From IMG/VR virus record IMGVR_UViG_3300042386_001217, positions 1 through 61,836 of that record: a stretch of DNA of 61,836 bases. The stretch is one strand, 5' to 3'. Shown piece after piece: positions 22,141-58,777 of this stretch (within the stretch, counting starts at the first letter, position 1; every line of letters starts with the position of its first letter). This DNA is from a virus. Both the position numbers and the translations under genes were made by a program. The notes under the pieces are model-generated. The model did not search any database and had not been told where the DNA came from. It saw only the letters and a list, made by a program, of their open reading frames with translations.

Positions 22141-22528
22141 GGGGGTGAAATAGAATCGATTGGCGTGATTAATGAATGGACGCACGTATGAGCTGAATTA
22201 ACTCATTAAAAACTGATTTAAACAATTAAACGGCAACGTTTTGAACAAAATGGCTGCTTGCGGTTTAATCCGTGAGGAAGCTGCTGTTGTAGCCTAATCG
22301 GCACAACACACTCAGGTCGGGAGACATATAACCTAGGAACAGAAGTCTTTTAAGATGTGGTTTCTATCTCAAAAGGAACAAAAGGGTGTAGTTCACCTTA
22401 AGGACTACCACCGTCGCTGAGCGGTGTGAAAACTCAGATATTTTGGAACATTAGAAAATGTTAACCTAAACGTGTAGGGTCTATTTTTTAGGGCGAACAA
22501 GACCGCAGGGCAGTACTGCGCATCTCCA
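22141..22528 (+). ncRNA. ssrA: tmRNA (transfer-messenger RNA), phage-encoded
   Basis: 388-nt RNA that rescues stalled ribosomes. The 5' end GGGGGTGAAATAGAATCGA matches the tmRNA pattern GGGGCUGAUUCUGGAUUCGA; GGGGGTG pairs with CATCTCC (22521-22527) as a 7-bp acceptor stem with discriminator A and no encoded CCA. CGCAG/CTGCG forms a T-stem but the loop GGCAGTA lacks the usual TTCRA. Tag frame: TTAAAC then GGC AAC GTT TTG (from 22232), ending GAG GAA GCT GCT GTT GTA GCC TAA (22297), 21 codons, C-terminal EEAAVVA. Own promoter and terminator. Confidence 0.85.
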
Positions 22529-22540
22529 CTTAATTCTACA

Positions 22541-50200: not shown

Positions 50201-50331
50201 CAAAGGTTGATTGGGGAATCCCACAATGTTAACGTGTCGGTAGTTCGTTGTTGTGGGGGAGTTTGAACTGTCATAGTAATGCCAATCGTAAAAGGAGTCG
50301 TCCACTGAACCATCTTCTCTTTACCTTATTT
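50201..50331 (+). ncRNA. structured spacer RNA between tRNA-Lys and tRNA-Val
   Basis: 131 nt. GATTGG near 50207 can pair with CCAATC near 50281, enclosing CCCACAA / TTGTGGG. Not a tRNA by its loops; function unknown. Confidence 0.4.
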
Positions 50332-51994: not shown

Positions 51995-52006
51995 GTTCTT
52001 TGACAT
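51995..52006 (+). promoter_or_regulatory. boxA-like GTTCTTTGACAT
   Basis: Same 12 nt as at 49858 and 57803, just after the transcription start region. Confidence 0.55.
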
Positions 52007-52191: not shown

Positions 52192-52273
52192 TGGCAGGTA
52201 GCCTAGAGGCCAGGCAGCAGACTGTTAATCTGCGACTTAAATGTCTACGTGGGTTCGATTCCCACCCTGTCAG
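52192..52273 (+). tRNA. tRNA-Asn(GUU) with unusually long variable arm
   Basis: Acceptor TGGCAGG/CCTGTCA, discriminator G, loop CTGTTAA, T-loop TTCGATT. The variable region GACTTAAATGTCTAC forms a class II-like arm (GAC/GTC), which Asn tRNAs normally lack. Confidence 0.85.
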
Positions 52274-52372
52274 CAACGTGAGACTAAGACACAGAAACAA
52301 TATCAGGTCAGTGGAGGGGAAACCCGTAGAAGCGTTTTAACACTTGATAAGTAACGGATACCTCACCATTTT
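52274..52372 (+). ncRNA. structured spacer
   Basis: 99 nt; GTGAG near 52279 can pair with CTCAC near 52362, with a GGGGAAACCC hairpin inside. Function unknown. Confidence 0.35.
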
Positions 52373-52488
52373 GGTCAACTACGTAATGCGGGAAGGTACC
52401 CAAATCCTGAAGACACTACGGTCCATAACCATTTGGACGCGAGACGTTGTAAGGTTGTCTAGTGCAGGTTCGAGTCCTGTGTTGACCA
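52373..52488 (+). ncRNA. tRNA-like RNA, non-canonical core (element 1)
   Basis: 116 nt. Acceptor GGTCAAC/GTTGACC with discriminator A and a normal T-arm (GCAGG TTCGAGT CCTGT), but the D- and anticodon-arm region is replaced by ~80 nt with a GTCCA/TGGAC hairpin. No standard anticodon loop. RNase P and Z could still release it. Confidence 0.6.
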
Positions 52489-52543
52489 AGAGAGCTAACC
52501 CAGCTTCACAATGAAGGCTAATACCGTCGGAGTGGGGGTGACG

Positions 52544-52565
52544 GTCAGGAAAGACTGACTTTTTT
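52544..52565 (+). terminator. terminator of the second tRNA array
   Basis: GTCAG / CTGAC with 6-nt loop and T-run. Confidence 0.75.
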
Positions 52566-52574
52566 AAATAAAAG

Positions 52575-52606
52575 TTTGGCAGATTAAAAAATCTGTTGTA
52601 ATTTTG
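52575..52606 (+). promoter_or_regulatory. promoter of the tRNA-like array
   Basis: TTTG (52575-52578), 20 nt, TAATTTTG (52599-52606). Confidence 0.65.
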
Positions 52607-52612
52607 TATCAG

Positions 52613-52831
52613 AATATGGGGGGACGGTTGTTGGTGAAGTTGGTGGACCGTCCTCCCTGTCTGTTAAGTTATTTGAAATAAAGATATTGATAGTGGTCAC
52701 TCTTACAATGAAAGTCGACAAAGTAATTGTAAGGTTCATAGTGTTCAGCACCCTCTGCCAAGGCCTTGAGAAAACTCAAAAGAAGCAGTTAAGATTGGGA
52801 CGAGACGGGTATCCCATCACTATCATAATAT
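52613..52831 (+). ncRNA. structured 5' part of the tRNA-like transcript
   Basis: Contains GGGACGGT / ACCGTCCTCC as a strong stem near 52620-52660 and GATAGTG (near 52686) pairing with CACTATC (near 52818), closing a ~135-nt domain with TGGGA/TCCCA inside. No protein-coding signal. Confidence 0.45.
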
Positions 52832-52924
52832 AGTCAGGTGGCGGAATGGTAGACGCTCGCTTCAAGGTGCGGATAGTCAACGAAATGTAAAGCTAACGTA
52901 CAGGTTCGAATCCTGTCCTGACTA
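52832..52924 (+). ncRNA. tRNA-like RNA (element 2)
   Basis: 93 nt. Acceptor AGTCAGG/CCTGACT-A, Leu-like D-arm (GCG...CGC), T-arm ACAGG TTCGAAT CCTGT. The anticodon arm is only CGC/GCG with an 8-nt loop TTCAAGGT. Could be a diverged tRNA-Leu, but decoding is doubtful. Confidence 0.6.
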
Positions 52925-53002
52925 CGAATGTTCAATAGTGGTAATTACGGGTCCGCCTCCTTGCCTGGAAATATACACTGGACAAATTAAGGGAGGCAAC
53001 AT
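52925..53002 (+). ncRNA. hairpin spacer between elements 2 and 3
   Basis: GCCTCC near 52952 pairs with GGAGGC near 52993, with CCTGG/CTGG inside. Function unknown. Confidence 0.4.
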
Positions 53003-53115
53003 AGTCAGGTGGCGGAGAGGTAAACGCCCCGAATAGTGAAACGGAGTGGAATAAACCGCAGTATAGTTGAGATACACACAAGGTCCACATGCAGGTTCGA
53101 GTCCTGTCCTGACTA
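53003..53115 (+). ncRNA. tRNA-like RNA (element 3)
   Basis: 113 nt. Same acceptor AGTCAGG/CCTGACT-A and D-arm type, T-arm GCAGG TTCGAGT CCTGT, with ~62 nt between D-arm and T-arm that forms no 5+7 anticodon arm. Confidence 0.6.
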
Positions 53116-53257
53116 CAGACTCTCATCTATAGCTGTGTAGAGAACTGATGAGAATTGTTGGAGGACACAGACCTCACGAACAGTGGTTTAGGGCGAAGGT
53201 AGCACCCCTATCACGAAGAGTACCAAAAACCAAATGGTTTAAAAGCTCTTCAAACAT
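53116..53257 (+). ncRNA. structured spacer between elements 3 and 4
   Basis: Local hairpins TCTCATC/GATGAGA, GAGG/CCTC, TAGGG/CCCTA and GAAGAG/CTCTTC in order. Function unknown. Confidence 0.4.
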
Positions 53258-53334
53258 AGTCAGGTGGTGGAATGGTTAACACACCCACGTCGTGGACTAA
53301 GCGCAATTTACAGGTTCGAATCCTGTCCTGACTA
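53258..53334 (+). ncRNA. tRNA-like RNA (element 4), shortest
   Basis: 77 nt. Acceptor AGTCAGG/CCTGACT-A, D-arm GTG...CAC, T-arm ACAGG TTCGAAT CCTGT. The anticodon arm collapses to CCAC-GTC-GTGG, leaving no 7-nt loop. Confidence 0.6.
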
Positions 53335-53534
53335 CACGTTCCGAGACACTACAACGGATAGTGTGCCCAACACGATGAGAAACGGAGTGATGACCGTATG
53401 GGAACCTACATTGGAGTGGATGGGGATAACTCCTGAGCAAGTCAGCTCGACCTCGTAAGGACAAATGATTATTCCTAACCTAGTAATAGGGACAGCCATA
53501 ACACTTGTAAGTTGGATAGAATAGAGTGTTACAT
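53335..53534 (+). ncRNA. structured spacer between elements 4 and 5
   Basis: Hairpins ACACTA/TAGTGT, GAGC/GCTC and TAACACT/AGTGTTA. No coding signal. Confidence 0.4.
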
Positions 53535-53641
53535 AGTCAGGTGGTGGAATGCTAAGGGTAGAGTGATGATTGATTGGAAGACATTAAGTTGACACCCATT
53601 CGATACGTAGCTTAATACAGGTTCGAATCCTGTCCTGACTA
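53535..53641 (+). ncRNA. tRNA-like RNA (element 5)
   Basis: 107 nt. Acceptor AGTCAGG/CCTGACT-A and T-arm ACAGG TTCGAAT CCTGT retained; the D-arm is disturbed and the core instead offers ATTAAG/CTTAAT and GGGT/ACCC pairings. Confidence 0.55.
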
Positions 53642-53646
53642 CCAAT

Positions 53647-53886
53647 ATGGACACAAAATATATTATTACTGAATCAGGAAACATTGTTGTGTTTGGTCCC
53701 GTATTCAATCATTCGGATTTCAGACATATGAATCCTGTAAGAGCTGGATTTATTTCTTTTGGTGTAAATAAAGACGGAAATCCAACCTGTTCTTGTTATG
53801 GTAAAAGTATTAGTTTGGGTATGGAATCAGACCCAGAACTTGATACAAGAATTGCAAAATTTCAGTTGGATTTAATGGATTATTAA
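53647..53886 (+). CDS. conserved-type hypothetical protein within the tRNA-like array
   Basis: 79 residues: KYIITESGNIVVFGPVFNHSDFRHMNPVRAGFISF, then CSCYG and SDPELDTRIAKFQL. The HSDF-x-H-x-NPVRAGF pattern recurs in many phages with unknown function. It starts 5 nt after tRNA-like element 5 and precedes element 6, so it must be cotranscribed with them. Confidence 0.75.
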   Translation: MDTKYIITESGNIVVFGPVFNHSDFRHMNPVRAGFISFGVNKDGNPTCSCYGKSISLGMESDPELDTRIAKFQLDLMDY

Positions 53887-53910
53887 AAATAATTATCCTA
53901 TAATTATGTC

Positions 53911-54027
53911 AGTCAGATGGCGAAACGGAAGACGCTTAGTCCAGTGAAGTGAAAATTATAAGTAACAGAGGACGAATACCGTAACTGCAGTAATTCGGTT
54001 CTACAGGTTCAAGTCCTGTTCTGACTA
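53911..54027 (+). ncRNA. tRNA-like RNA (element 6)
   Basis: 117 nt. Acceptor AGTCAGA/TCTGACT-A (compensated relative to elements 2-5), D-arm GCG...CGC, T-arm ACAGG TTCAAGT CCTGT. GTCC/GGAC encloses ~27 nt where the anticodon loop should be, followed by a CGAAT/ATTCG arm. The paired acceptor change argues for selection on the stem. Confidence 0.65.
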
Positions 54028-54567
54028 CAAAAGACCCCACAATTAACAGAAGTACTCGTCTGTTATGGTGTGTGAACCCGACTGGAAGTCTTCGGGGCTA
54101 TGGGGGATAGATACACAGAGTGAAACACATATAACCTCTTATAAACGGGGTTCATTGGGAAGGGGAAGTTCTTCTTAAGTATGTGGGAATCTCAAAACAA
54201 ACAGAGTTCCCCAATTATGGATTAAGGGGGTGAGGGGCTTTAATTAGTCGTAATAGAATCCACAAGTTGTAGAAATACTGGACAATTCTACAATATACAC
54301 TCATATCTTCCGAGTGAGACTCCCACGTAACTATGGGGGTAGGGTCGAAGATGTCCTGAGGGTAGCACTGAACGCTGTATTGAAAACTCTATGACTAATC
54401 GATTAGATAAGTAAATATGGACGGAGTGTGAGAGTACAGGTCTGACGTGGATGGTTACTAAGTCCTATCGTATCGTAGGAATATCGTCAGAAATATATTA
54501 CGGATAATATCTAACAACTTAAAGGGTACTTCTGTAAATCCGCAGAGATGATACAGTACCCTTTTTT
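54028..54567 (+). ncRNA. large structured non-coding RNA ending in a terminator
   Basis: ~540 nt without an ORF. Strong stems include TAACAGA/TCTGTTA, GACT/AGTC, TTGTAGAA/TTCTACAA, TCCTA/TAGGA and the terminal GGGTAC/GTACCC. GAACCC (~54075) can pair with GGGTTC (~54148), a possible long-range or pseudoknot contact. Location beside tRNAs and size resemble the GOLLD/ROOL type of ornate phage RNAs, but no specific motif was verified. Confidence 0.55.
54521..54567 (+). terminator. terminator of the tRNA-like transcript
   Basis: AAAGGGTAC / GTACCCTTT with a 26-nt loop and T-run. Confidence 0.75.
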
Positions 54568-54608
54568 ATTTTCTTTGGTTACTTTGTATTTATCATTAAG
54601 TTCAAGGT

Positions 54609-55550
54609 ATGCCGAAAGTAAACGGAGTCGATACTTCAAGTATCAGTAAGGTAAATGGTATTTTAAAAACAAATATATCCAAATTAAATGGGATATCTGG
54701 TTTATTTGATGCATCACCAACACCAACGCCAACAAATACTCCAACTCCAAGTATTACACCGACAAGAACTGTTACACCAACGGTGACTCCTTCAATAACA
54801 CCAAGTATTACACCGACAAGAACTGTTACACCAACGGTGACTCCTTCAATAACACCAAGTATTACACCGACAAGAACTGTTACACCATCAGTTACACCAT
54901 CAATAACACCATCAGTTACACCATCAATAAGTGTTTCACCAACAAGAACACCAACTGTTACACCATCAGTTACACCATCAATAAGTGTTTCTCCAACAAG
55001 AACACCAACTGTTACACCAACAAGAACTCCTACCGTTACACCTACCGTAACACCTTCACCATCCGCTGCTGCATGTAACGATGTTAATGCAACATATGGT
55101 TCAACAGGTCAAGAATTTACTTACTGTCCACAAAACGTAACTGTTTCGTTAAATGGTACTAACTTGTCAAACGCAACTACAGTATTCGCATTTGGTTATG
55201 GTTGTGACCCTAATTTCTTGGCACCTGATGGATATTATGGTGACGGTTCAGGTAATTATGAATGGTCTGGAGGTGTGTTAACCCCGAATCCTACAATAGT
55301 TTTCGTAACTTGTAATACTGTAAACCTTTATACCGCACCTATGGCTAATGACATTTGTAATTGTATAGCACCTAACATACCATTTGGTCTTGATAGTACT
55401 CCATTAACATCCGCAAGTGCAATCTACACAGATTGTTGCACGGCAAATTTAGCAGGACCTGGTTGGTATTCAGAAAACTGTGGTACGGGTAGTATTGCTC
55501 GTGAATGGGATGGTACAGCATTTATTGGAGCACCATATACATGTCCATAA
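54609..55550 (+). CDS. Thr/Pro-repeat fibre-like protein with Cys-rich head
   Basis: 313 residues. N-terminus has three copies of S-[IK]-x-K-[VL]-N-G ([20 protein letters not shown]), a motif of phage fibre attachment segments. Residues ~36-155 are T-P-T-R-T / T-P-S-I-T-P repeats. The C-terminal ~155 residues contain many Cys and Gly/Tyr ([47 protein letters not shown]), a likely receptor-binding or disulfide-bonded head. Shares its repeats with the 15090 protein. TATTTAT lies ~18 nt upstream. Confidence 0.7.
54747..54880. repeat. 54-bp in-frame tandem repeats
   Basis: Copies start at 54747, 54801 and 54855 (last partial), identical as read; encode [11 protein letters not shown] blocks. Confidence 0.85.
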
Positions 55551-56303: not shown

Positions 56304-57572
56304 ATGGAATCTTTATCAAAAGTAGGAAACGGAATCGTGGGGTCCGAAATCATTAAAATCTCACAACAAATCAAGGAAATTGCGAAAAATAAACCCGTAG
56401 CAAATTTAACCATAGGTGACTTTGATTCAAAAAAATGGCCAATACCATTTAGACTCAAACAACTTATTGAAAAATATTACGAACAAAACTATACAAACTA
56501 TCCGAACTCACAAGGTGAATTGTCGTTGCGTGAAGCGGTAAGTAATTACTTGAACAGTCAATACGAGTTAAACTATAAACCAAGTGAAATTCTTATTGGT
56601 GGTGGTGTTAGACCGTTAATCTACACAGTATACAAAGGTACTGTAAATCAAGGTGAATCTGTGATTTATCCAGTACCATCTTGGAACAATAACCACTATT
56701 GTTTTCTTCACGGAGCAACCAAGAAAGAAATTGAATGTAAACCTGAAAATTCATTCTTTCCTACGGTTAGTGATATTGAAAATAGTATTGATGATTCAAC
56801 ATCTTTGATTTGTATTTGTTCGCCACAAAACCCAACAGGTAGGGTAATTCCATCAGAAACGTTAAAAGGTATTTGTGAAGTCATTATTAAAGAAAACAAG
56901 TTAAGAGCAACACAGGTAAATTCAAGACCAATATATCTTTTCTTCGACCAAATTTATTCCGATTTAACAGATAAAGAATTATTCACACACCCATTGTATG
57001 TTTGTCCTGAAATAAAAAATTATTTGATTTGTGCTGACGGAATTTCAAAATCATTAAGTGCTACAGGTATTAGAGTTGGTTGGATTTTTGGACCACAAGA
57101 TGTTATTGGTAAATTAACCGAAATATTTTCACACATTGGAGCTTGGGCACCAAAACCTGAACAAAACGCAGTTGCGGAATTTTTAAATGAAGAAAGGGAA
57201 GTTCACAAAGTTCATACAGAATTTACACGTGGTGAGTTCATGTATTATAGTTCATTGATTTGTGATAAAATTGAAGAATTAAAAGAAAAAGGTTTTAGAG
57301 TTGATTGTCAAAGACCTGAAGGTGGAATTTATATTTCAGTTTATTTTGATTATGCAAAATCATTTAGCTCAAGCGAAGAATTTGTTTATCATTTAATTAA
57401 TACCTATGGACTTGGAATTGTACCCTTTGAATTTTTTGGTTCAAAAGAAAACAGAGGATGGTTTAGAATCTCTTTAGGTAATATTGATGACGAAAATATT
57501 GATGAAATAATAGATATTATTGAAAATTCAGTATTAAAACTACATCAATTTGTAAATTCAATGGTATTTTAA
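56304..57572 (+). CDS. PLP-dependent aminotransferase, class I/II
   Basis: 422 residues. GIVGSEIIKI start, NYTNYPNSQGELSLREAV, CSPQNPTGRVIP (Asn/Pro substrate site), FDQIYSDL (cofactor Asp/Tyr), GISKSLSATGIRVGWIFGP (Schiff-base Lys) and a C-terminal GWFRISLGN Arg. Complete fold-type I enzyme of AspC/AlaT type. Substrate unknown. Uncommon as a phage auxiliary gene; base composition matches its neighbours. Confidence 0.88.
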   Translation: MESLSKVGNGIVGSEIIKISQQIKEIAKNKPVANLTIGDFDSKKWPIPFRLKQLIEKYYEQNYTNYPNSQGELSLREAVSNYLNSQYELNYKPSEILIGGGVRPLIYTVYKGTVNQGESVIYPVPSWNNNHYCFLHGATKKEIECKPENSFFPTVSDIENSIDDSTSLICICSPQNPTGRVIPSETLKGICEVIIKENKLRATQVNSRPIYLFFDQIYSDLTDKELFTHPLYVCPEIKNYLICADGISKSLSATGIRVGWIFGPQDVIGKLTEIFSHIGAWAPKPEQNAVAEFLNEEREVHKVHTEFTRGEFMYYSSLICDKIEELKEKGFRVDCQRPEGGIYISVYFDYAKSFSSSEEFVYHLINTYGLGIVPFEFFGSKENRGWFRISLGNIDDENIDEIIDIIENSVLKLHQFVNSMVF

Positions 57573-57904: not shown

Positions 57905-58000
57905 TGAGTTATATCTTCAGGTACCCGTACCGCTAACGTGGGGCTAAGTAAGATACAATTTCGTACTGCGGGAAGTAGAATGCCTGTCTGAGATAACTCA
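57905..58000 (+). ncRNA. acceptor-like closed spacer RNA
   Basis: 96 nt closed by TGAGTTAT / ATAACTCA; no T-loop, so not a tRNA. Function unknown. Confidence 0.4.
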
Positions 58001-58277: not shown

Positions 58278-58484
58278 CAAAAAGAACCCTTCCTTACAGA
58301 AGACAGATTAGCACTGTTGAAAGAGACCTTGGCTTCGTGGGAGTAGCTACCCAATGAAGTAATCATGACCTGAGGTATTCTGTGATGGACCCTGCTCTAT
58401 GGTGCACTCATACCAGGTGAACAGTAAATTATGTTCAGTCAAATCCACAACTACGGTGAGCGTAGAAGGAAAGTTTCTTTTATT
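58278..58484 (+). ncRNA. structured spacer between the two tRNA-Gly genes
   Basis: 207 nt; CTTCCT near 58290 can pair with AGAAGG near 58463, closing most of the spacer. No coding signal. Confidence 0.4.
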
Positions 58485-58557
58485 GCGAGAGTAGCTCAGT
58501 TGGTAGAGCATCACCTTGCCAAGGTGAGGGTCGCGTGTTCGAATCACGTTTCTCGCT
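58485..58557 (+). tRNA. tRNA-Gly(GCC)
   Basis: Acceptor GCGAGAG/TTCTCGC, loop TTGCCAA, T-loop TTCGAAT. Confidence 0.94.
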
Positions 58558-58777
58558 CAATGAGTAAGAGATACTCATCAGTCTTTCATCCAAGACTCAT
58601 TTAACAATGGATGGGGATAAAAAATGTCCACCGACGGACTTTCGATTCGGAACTACGGATGCAAGACCAGCTTCGCCGACGTAAAGGTTGACTTTTTTAT
58701 GGGGGATGCTCCACAGGTTTTTGAAATAGAAAAAACCGAAATGACTACTCACCAGTAATCTCAAGGTGGGGAATAAC
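58558..58777 (+). ncRNA. structured spacer before tRNA-Asp
   Basis: 220 nt; ATGAGTA/TACTCAT and GTCTT/AAGAC hairpins at the start, then lower-complexity sequence. Function unknown. Confidence 0.4.

Follow-up and report, generated by a model that had tools for sequence, protein, structure and literature searches.

The window analyzed here, i.e. the whole stretch of 61,836 bases from the IMG/VR virus record IMGVR_UViG_3300042386_001217 (probably a fragment), contains six tRNA-like elements that are best read, with fair though incomplete confidence, as phage small RNAs in which a constant tRNA(Leu)-like chassis is kept and an exchangeable structured core takes the place of the anticodon and variable arms; such RNAs would be matured like tRNAs, probably leucylatable and non-decoding. 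Comparison across viral contigs demonstrates, at the level of sequence, a constant chassis, hypervariable cores that are conserved and covary within a lineage, and a transferable unit whose cores alternate at fixed loci. The elements look like a natural plug-in RNA system that seems to have gone undescribed so far: a literature search made without preprints and many subscription papers brought up no comparable class of natural RNAs, and the sequence-only reading of the window had likewise recognized no described class that fits.

Six tRNA-like elements in an RNA island

The window encodes a terminase (phrog_5989), a major head protein, a tmRNA (22141–22531, a match to RF00023) and ~22 ordinary tRNAs. 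All six elements lie between the tRNA-Asn gene (52192) and the gene at 54609, in an almost gene-free, GC-rich (43%) region. They are all on the + strand. As the sequence-only reading had described them, they are 77–117 nt long, and each has a 7-bp acceptor stem, a discriminator A and a normal (5-bp/7-nt) T-arm, with no 5-bp/7-nt anticodon arm in any of them. The acceptor AGTCAGG/CCTGACT, which had been attributed to five elements, is in fact carried by four (52832, 53003, 53258 and 53535), and AGTCAGA/TCTGACT is indeed the pair found in the element at 53911. The supposed fifth sharer, element 1 (52373–52488, 116 nt), has the acceptor GGTCAAC/GTTGACC with A73 and the core ..GTAATGCGGGAAGGTACCCAAATCC..GGTTG.., and belongs to a distinct, second tRNA-like family.

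The other five elements differ from one another mainly inside. Element 2 (52832–52924, 93 nt) has a Leu-like chassis with a 3-bp/8-nt ‘anticodon’ hairpin, CGC-TTCAAGGT-GCG, and the variable-arm loop CAACGAAATGTAAA. The same type of chassis holds a core of about 62 nt in element 3 (53003–53115, 113 nt; Rfam tRNA score 36.7 bits) and a short core, with the hairpin CCAC-GTC-GTGG and its 3-nt loop, in element 4 (53258–53334, 77 nt; 46.2 bits). Element 5 (53535–53641, 107 nt) combines the AGTCAGG acceptor and T-arm with a non-standard D-region and a conserved 33-nt core segment; because it lacks an ordinary D-arm, at the place of which its relatives read TGGC-GAAA-GCTA, the D-arm is not universal to the chassis. 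In element 6 (53911–54027, 117 nt; 30.9 bits), a large-loop helix GTCC/GGAC is accompanied by a variable arm ACCG/CGGT.

The elements are hidden in existing annotations because tRNA finders either call them odd tRNAs or miss them. ARAGORN calls only the element at 52832, as a ‘tRNA-???’ with a 4-nt anticodon, and the Rfam tRNA cut-off is reached by four of the six (46, 40, 37 and 31 bits), compared with 52–74 bits for the ordinary tRNAs of the window. In the element region (52260–54600), no Rfam family except tRNA was found at E up to 1, and the best 150 of 200 matches in an Rfam search of 11 loci were all tRNA. The chassis pattern matches five times in the window and not once in 100 shuffles.

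The second family, with the chassis ..GTAATG-GG..GGT..CC-ARTCC..GGTTG.., was also observed at L085:3062 and L094:593 and in L099, L102, L194 and L197, besides 52373 of the window. The length of its inner arm varies between about 10 and 50 nt, the members in L085, L094, L099 and L102 being short cousins of element 1. In two relatives of element 1 (L073 and L118), the acceptor is fully compensated, to AGTCAAG/CTTGACT.

The elements had been credited with promoters of their own. They do lie inside predicted transcripts, but there are not six promoters: elements 2–6 share one transcript behind a Bacteroidota-type promoter, TTTG-N20-TAATTTTG (52575–52606, + strand), which was located by pattern scan and the function of which is predicted. 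Element 1 belongs to a transcript at 51.99–52.57 kb that is headed by the boxA-like leader TTCTTTGACAT (51996–52006, + strand), includes Leu, Leu and Asn tRNAs, and has a terminator-like hairpin (52543–52570, + strand) 3' of the element. Bacteroidota-like promoters (TTTG-N-TAnnTTTG) number 25 in the window by pattern scan, against 7.3 expected, and the boxA-like sequence occurs at three sites (49859, 51996 and 57804; 0.18 expected), all of them leaders of tRNA/ncRNA clusters. Across all loci, 34 of the 51 boxA-like sites are within 1 kb upstream of tRNA-shaped genes. In rRNA leaders, boxA has a role in antitermination, and the boxA-like leaders suggest a similar antitermination of phage RNA operons.

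Conserved non-coding stretches separate the tRNA and tRNA-like genes of the window (50202–50331, 52493–52559, 52665–52825, 53357–53530, 54031–54569, 57915–57991, 58291–58481 and 58537–58773). They are about 70–95% identical to other phage contigs and match no Rfam family (52260–54600 at E up to 1, the whole window at gathering cut-offs); they may represent a second layer of phage RNAs, one of about 370 nt (54196–54569). The RNA island also includes a class I/II aminotransferase gene (56304–57572) and a gene for a protein with long Thr/Pro-rich repeats (54609–55550).

The constant chassis and its leucine identity

The chassis consists of a 7-bp acceptor, mostly AGTCAGG/CCTGACT, the discriminator A, a T-arm ACAGG-TTCGANT-CCTGT and, usually, a tRNA-Leu D-arm, with a core of 20–115 nt in place of the anticodon and variable arms. 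Scans of other viral contigs revealed a class far larger than the window. An exact scan of IMG/VR viral contigs with the 5' chassis returned at least 120 stretches, and a scan with a separate pattern for the 3' chassis at least 120 matches. Nearly all the listed 5'-chassis matches read AGTCAGGTGGCGGAATGGTAGACGC – core – ACAGGTTCGANTCCTGTCCTGACTA, the 3' half being absent from the search pattern.

In the census set (237 fetched loci and the window), 688 distinct tRNA-shaped objects were found; a strict test recognized a canonical anticodon arm in 305 of them and none in the other 383. Because some of the 383 are ordinary tRNAs that fail the strict arm test (clusters 6, 7 and 9), counts are quoted here for the AGTCAGG set or its near variants. 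Three of the 264 distinct AGTCAGG elements pass the arm test, and the remaining 261 have no standard anticodon arm. The median element length is 104 nt, at least 205 of the fetched loci have one or more elements, and copies of the 3' chassis reach nine per contig, on one strand throughout each contig. One acceptor sequence predominates: among non-canonical elements that neither scan pattern could have selected, AGTCAGG recurs in 51 of 158, and the 305 canonical tRNAs of the same loci have 234 different acceptors, none of which occurs more than five times. The elements are preceded by AAT and followed by CAAA, as are the canonical tRNAs of the same contigs, and CCA is not encoded; this likeness of the flanks is in line with the same maturation.

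As far as seen, the elements are present in viral contigs only. Seven contigs from metagenome-assembled genomes (MAGs), found among 84,980 species, are probably phage contigs binned by mistake. The 52832 core is absent from 295 Bacteroidia genomes, 294 of which have no match to the chassis either, the exception being one of the seven MAGs. A set of 50,697 phage records contained no whole element, and four records of related or large phages had none either. The terminases of element-bearing contigs are 64–86% identical to that of the window in nine cases and about 31% in two, in addition to a group with phrog_2.

The features of canonical tRNAs are retained selectively. The 7-bp acceptor, the T-arm with a TTCRANY loop and the tertiary core are all found, whereas a 5-bp/7-nt arm bearing U33 and an anticodon is lacking in 261 of the 264 AGTCAGG elements and in the elements of the window. 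The 15:48 tertiary pair is A-T in 216 elements, G-C in eight and T-A in seven (Fisher p = 2.6e-7 for A/G versus T/C); this covariation implies that the tRNA elbow is kept. The T15:A48 combination, as opposed to the common A15:U48 and G15:C48, occurs in seven AGTCAGG elements, e.g. L118:856-926, L224:1842 and L206:2808.

The bacterial leucine identity set comprises A73, U8:A14, A15:U48, G18G19, A20a and the T-loop, and Escherichia coli tRNA-Leu from which the anticodon and variable arms have been removed can still be charged with leucine as long as it retains A73 and the contacts between D- and T-loop (PMC9976931). The complete set is present in 141 of 218 elements (65%), compared with 44 of 45 canonical tRNA-Leu (98%) and 16 of 260 other tRNAs (6%), and in 20 of the 57 elements selected by neither pattern (p = 5e-8). 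Leucine charging is therefore plausible for the majority of the elements. It cannot be common to all of them because at least one determinant is missing in 35% and because the D-arm is not universal, the 53535 family being without a normal one. Overall, the elements share with canonical bacterial and phage tRNA-Leu the acceptor, the D- and T-arms, A73, U8:A14, A15:U48, G18G19, A20a and the flanking processing context; they differ in having no anticodon or 5-bp/7-nt arm and usually no tRNA-type variable arm, in the mutual unrelatedness of their cores, and in the dominance of one acceptor sequence.

The constancy of the chassis brings in the only strong rival explanation, namely that the elements are decoys or sponges for acceptor-side enzymes (host LeuRS, EF-Tu, the CCA enzyme or defence nucleases that attack tRNA tails, such as Cas12a3), with a functional chassis and a core that is filler. 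The constant parts are exactly those that acceptor-side enzymes touch. Cas12a3 contacts the T-arm, the acceptor stem and CCA, with the other loops not needed (PMC12851939), and the over-representation of AGTCAGG even in unselected elements, against at most 5/305 for any canonical acceptor, points the same way. However, a tail nuclease would not require one acceptor sequence, and cores that covary, persist in unrelated contexts and are exchanged as whole units, as detailed below, are not filler; on balance, this explanation appears unlikely. Its version with anticodon nucleases as the target, which the sequence-only reading had raised, was rejected, given that the elements have no anticodon loop to offer.

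Conservation and exchange of the cores

The cores fall into 290 clusters, 233 of which are singletons. In scans specific for single cores, that of 52832 turned up in 16 contigs besides the window, that of 52373 in 14, and those of 53003 and 53535 in five each; the L016 ortholog of 53003 is 90.6% identical over 117 nt. An exact scan with the core of 53258 found no match elsewhere. The relatives have the same non-canonical cores, so the unusual structures are not assembly errors, a possibility that had been left open.

Within these families, the helices vary in a compensated manner. In the 52832 family (alignment A1, with L253 trimmed by one base and L118 left out), one variable-arm pair is UA in nine members and CG in five, and changes in the acceptor are compensated. 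The proposal that the acceptor stems are under selection is borne out most clearly by the 53535 family (alignment A2), where the acceptor of L246 is wholly replaced, from AGTCAGG/CCTGACT to AACAGAG/CTCTGTT, with five double compensatory changes and the same core. The element at 53911 and its L149 ortholog are likewise separated by double compensatory changes, both in the acceptor and in the variable arm. The 52832 orthologs are 93% alike per column, a value to which the bases within the core search pattern contribute by construction, whereas the 60 bases upstream and downstream show 30% identity (n = 12); hence, the boundaries of the unit coincide with the tRNA ends. Judged by these alignments, the cores are conserved genes, not filler.

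This pattern is difficult to reconcile with decaying tRNA genes or functionless recombination debris. The great variation in length and the many cores seen once are what decay would produce, but the T-loop, acceptor pairing, 15:48 pair and Leu determinants are kept in hundreds of elements, the stems change in a compensatory manner, and one core persists in 16 other contigs with unrelated flanks, so that decay is scarcely credible.

What the cores have in common is limited. Compared with dinucleotide shuffles, they fold more stably (mean z −0.74, p = 6e-13), but the neighboring sequence already reaches −0.43, so that the excess is modest. No sequence motif common to the cores was found, only weak enrichment of GTAAGTCC and similar words, and predicted antisense targets in the same contig show no excess over shuffled cores (116 cores).

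The exchange of cores is most apparent in a group of phages with a terminase of the family phrog_2, unlike the phrog_5989 of the window, in which two positions, A and B, each hold a single element directly behind a promoter. At locus B, five core groups (L097/L049, L100/L178, L147/L192, L188/L196/L221 and L213) alternate within nearly constant surroundings: identity is 89% over the 200 bases upstream, 88% downstream and 98% in the 3' chassis, and the cores themselves are mutually unrelated, at 29% identity, the same as for shuffled cores (29%). At locus A, one promoter region (70% identity upstream, 45% downstream) is followed by five different cores (26%, against 26% when shuffled); in L049, only 2 bases separate this locus from the terminase gene that follows it, and in L256 and L265 it holds the 52832 core of the window, in phages unrelated to the window. 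These swaps are best accounted for by recombination inside the constant ends, and the replacement of the middle between constant surroundings would be the mark of arms-race genes.

Core replacement also bears on the idea that the elements translate, either as frameshift readers with odd anticodon loops or as tRNAs in which the removal of a small intron restores the arm. The 8-nt TTCAAGGT loop of 52832 resembles a Leu(CAA) loop, and in the tRNA-Leu(CAA)-like gene L043:4113-4218 the anticodon loop, ATAATACTCAAAA, has 13 nt. However, the element at 53258 and many others are too short for this or have unrelated helices with loops of 3–26 nt, there is no common splice signal, and the cores are wholly different at one locus. 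The insertions into the anticodon loop once suggested for the window elements find no support either, the element at 53258 being too short and the cores being replaced, not interrupted, and translation by these RNAs is highly improbable.

In 13 elements, the end of the −7 box lies 4 nt upstream of the acceptor stem, a spacing seen in none of the 305 canonical tRNAs; transcription therefore probably starts at the element itself. This is relevant to the possibility that the elements are tRNA punctuation tags, i.e. RNase P and RNase Z sites that free conserved ncRNAs or mRNAs between them. The elements of the window do alternate with conserved RNAs, and 39% of all elements have an ORF start within 150 nt downstream. 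Elements at a predicted transcription start, in contrast, need no 5' cut, 32 of 126 elements are solitary, ordinary tRNAs would be equally serviceable, and conserved or swapped cores are left unexplained. The processing tags envisaged by the sequence-only reading could thus be a side effect inside arrays; as the main role, punctuation is improbable.

Possible roles and known counterparts

If the elements are, as we favor, small RNAs with exchangeable cores, their ends would come from the tRNA maturation enzymes (RNase P, RNase Z and CCA addition), with the 5' end of single elements set by transcription start at the first acceptor base. The product would be a stable, CCA-tailed, probably leucylatable RNA unable to decode, the core would be the effector, binding a protein or an RNA, and recombination inside the constant ends would swap cores, as expected in an arms race. 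Taken by itself, the swapping pattern would fit a role in countering host defences, in taking over the host or in excluding competing phages. A more far-reaching proposal, offered tentatively as a possibility with nearly as much for it as against it, is a modular RNA effector platform, in which the leucylatable, non-decoding chassis carries cores that are exchanged between phages, each with a target of its own in the host or in a rival.

Phages swap proteins in arms races, and the elements, if this proposal is true, would be an RNA counterpart of hypervariable accessory protein loci. One tRNA chassis with an exchanged functional part would be a new principle among small RNAs. The class would provide hundreds of natural tRNA-displayed RNA domains for tests of anti-defence and host take-over, along with natural material for testing which anticodon-less substrates LeuRS, RNase P, RNase Z and EF-Tu accept.

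Several known RNAs invite comparison. Like the elements, tmRNA (RF00023) has tRNA-like ends and another RNA in place of the anticodon arm; the elements differ in having no RF00023 match and no tag frame, in U3:A70 (G3:U70 in tmRNA), in an ordinary D-arm and in the length of 77–117 nt, and the window phage has a separate tmRNA (22141–22531). GOLLD and ROOL RNAs are associated with phages and tRNAs. They resemble the elements as structured non-coding RNAs of unknown role, but are several hundred nucleotides long and form single conserved families (PMC12286853); the elements have no Rfam match to them. The nearest idea is the artificial ‘tRNA scaffold’, where a foreign RNA takes the place of the anticodon arm for stable accumulation (PMC3753655); that scaffold is laboratory-made, whereas the elements, which would be its natural precedent, are found in hundreds of phage contigs, with an elbow of the Leu type and cores that are swapped. 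Some phage tRNAs evade anticodon nucleases (eLife 85183, cited in PMC12851939); these are also extra phage tRNA genes linked to defence, but they keep the loop with point changes and decode, which the elements cannot.

Other odd tRNA-like genes were observed in the same loci. A separate family of about 120–153 nt (L067:6498-6650, L069:4150-4301, L109:2090-2242 and L015:3495-3616) has the conserved core GTGGGTAAATGATG...GTAGTTTACAAGG ahead of the T-arm, and varied acceptor stems. Two further genes, L109:3009-3130 and L031:1916-2035, are tRNA-shaped, with a normal-looking anticodon arm and two consecutive T-arms.
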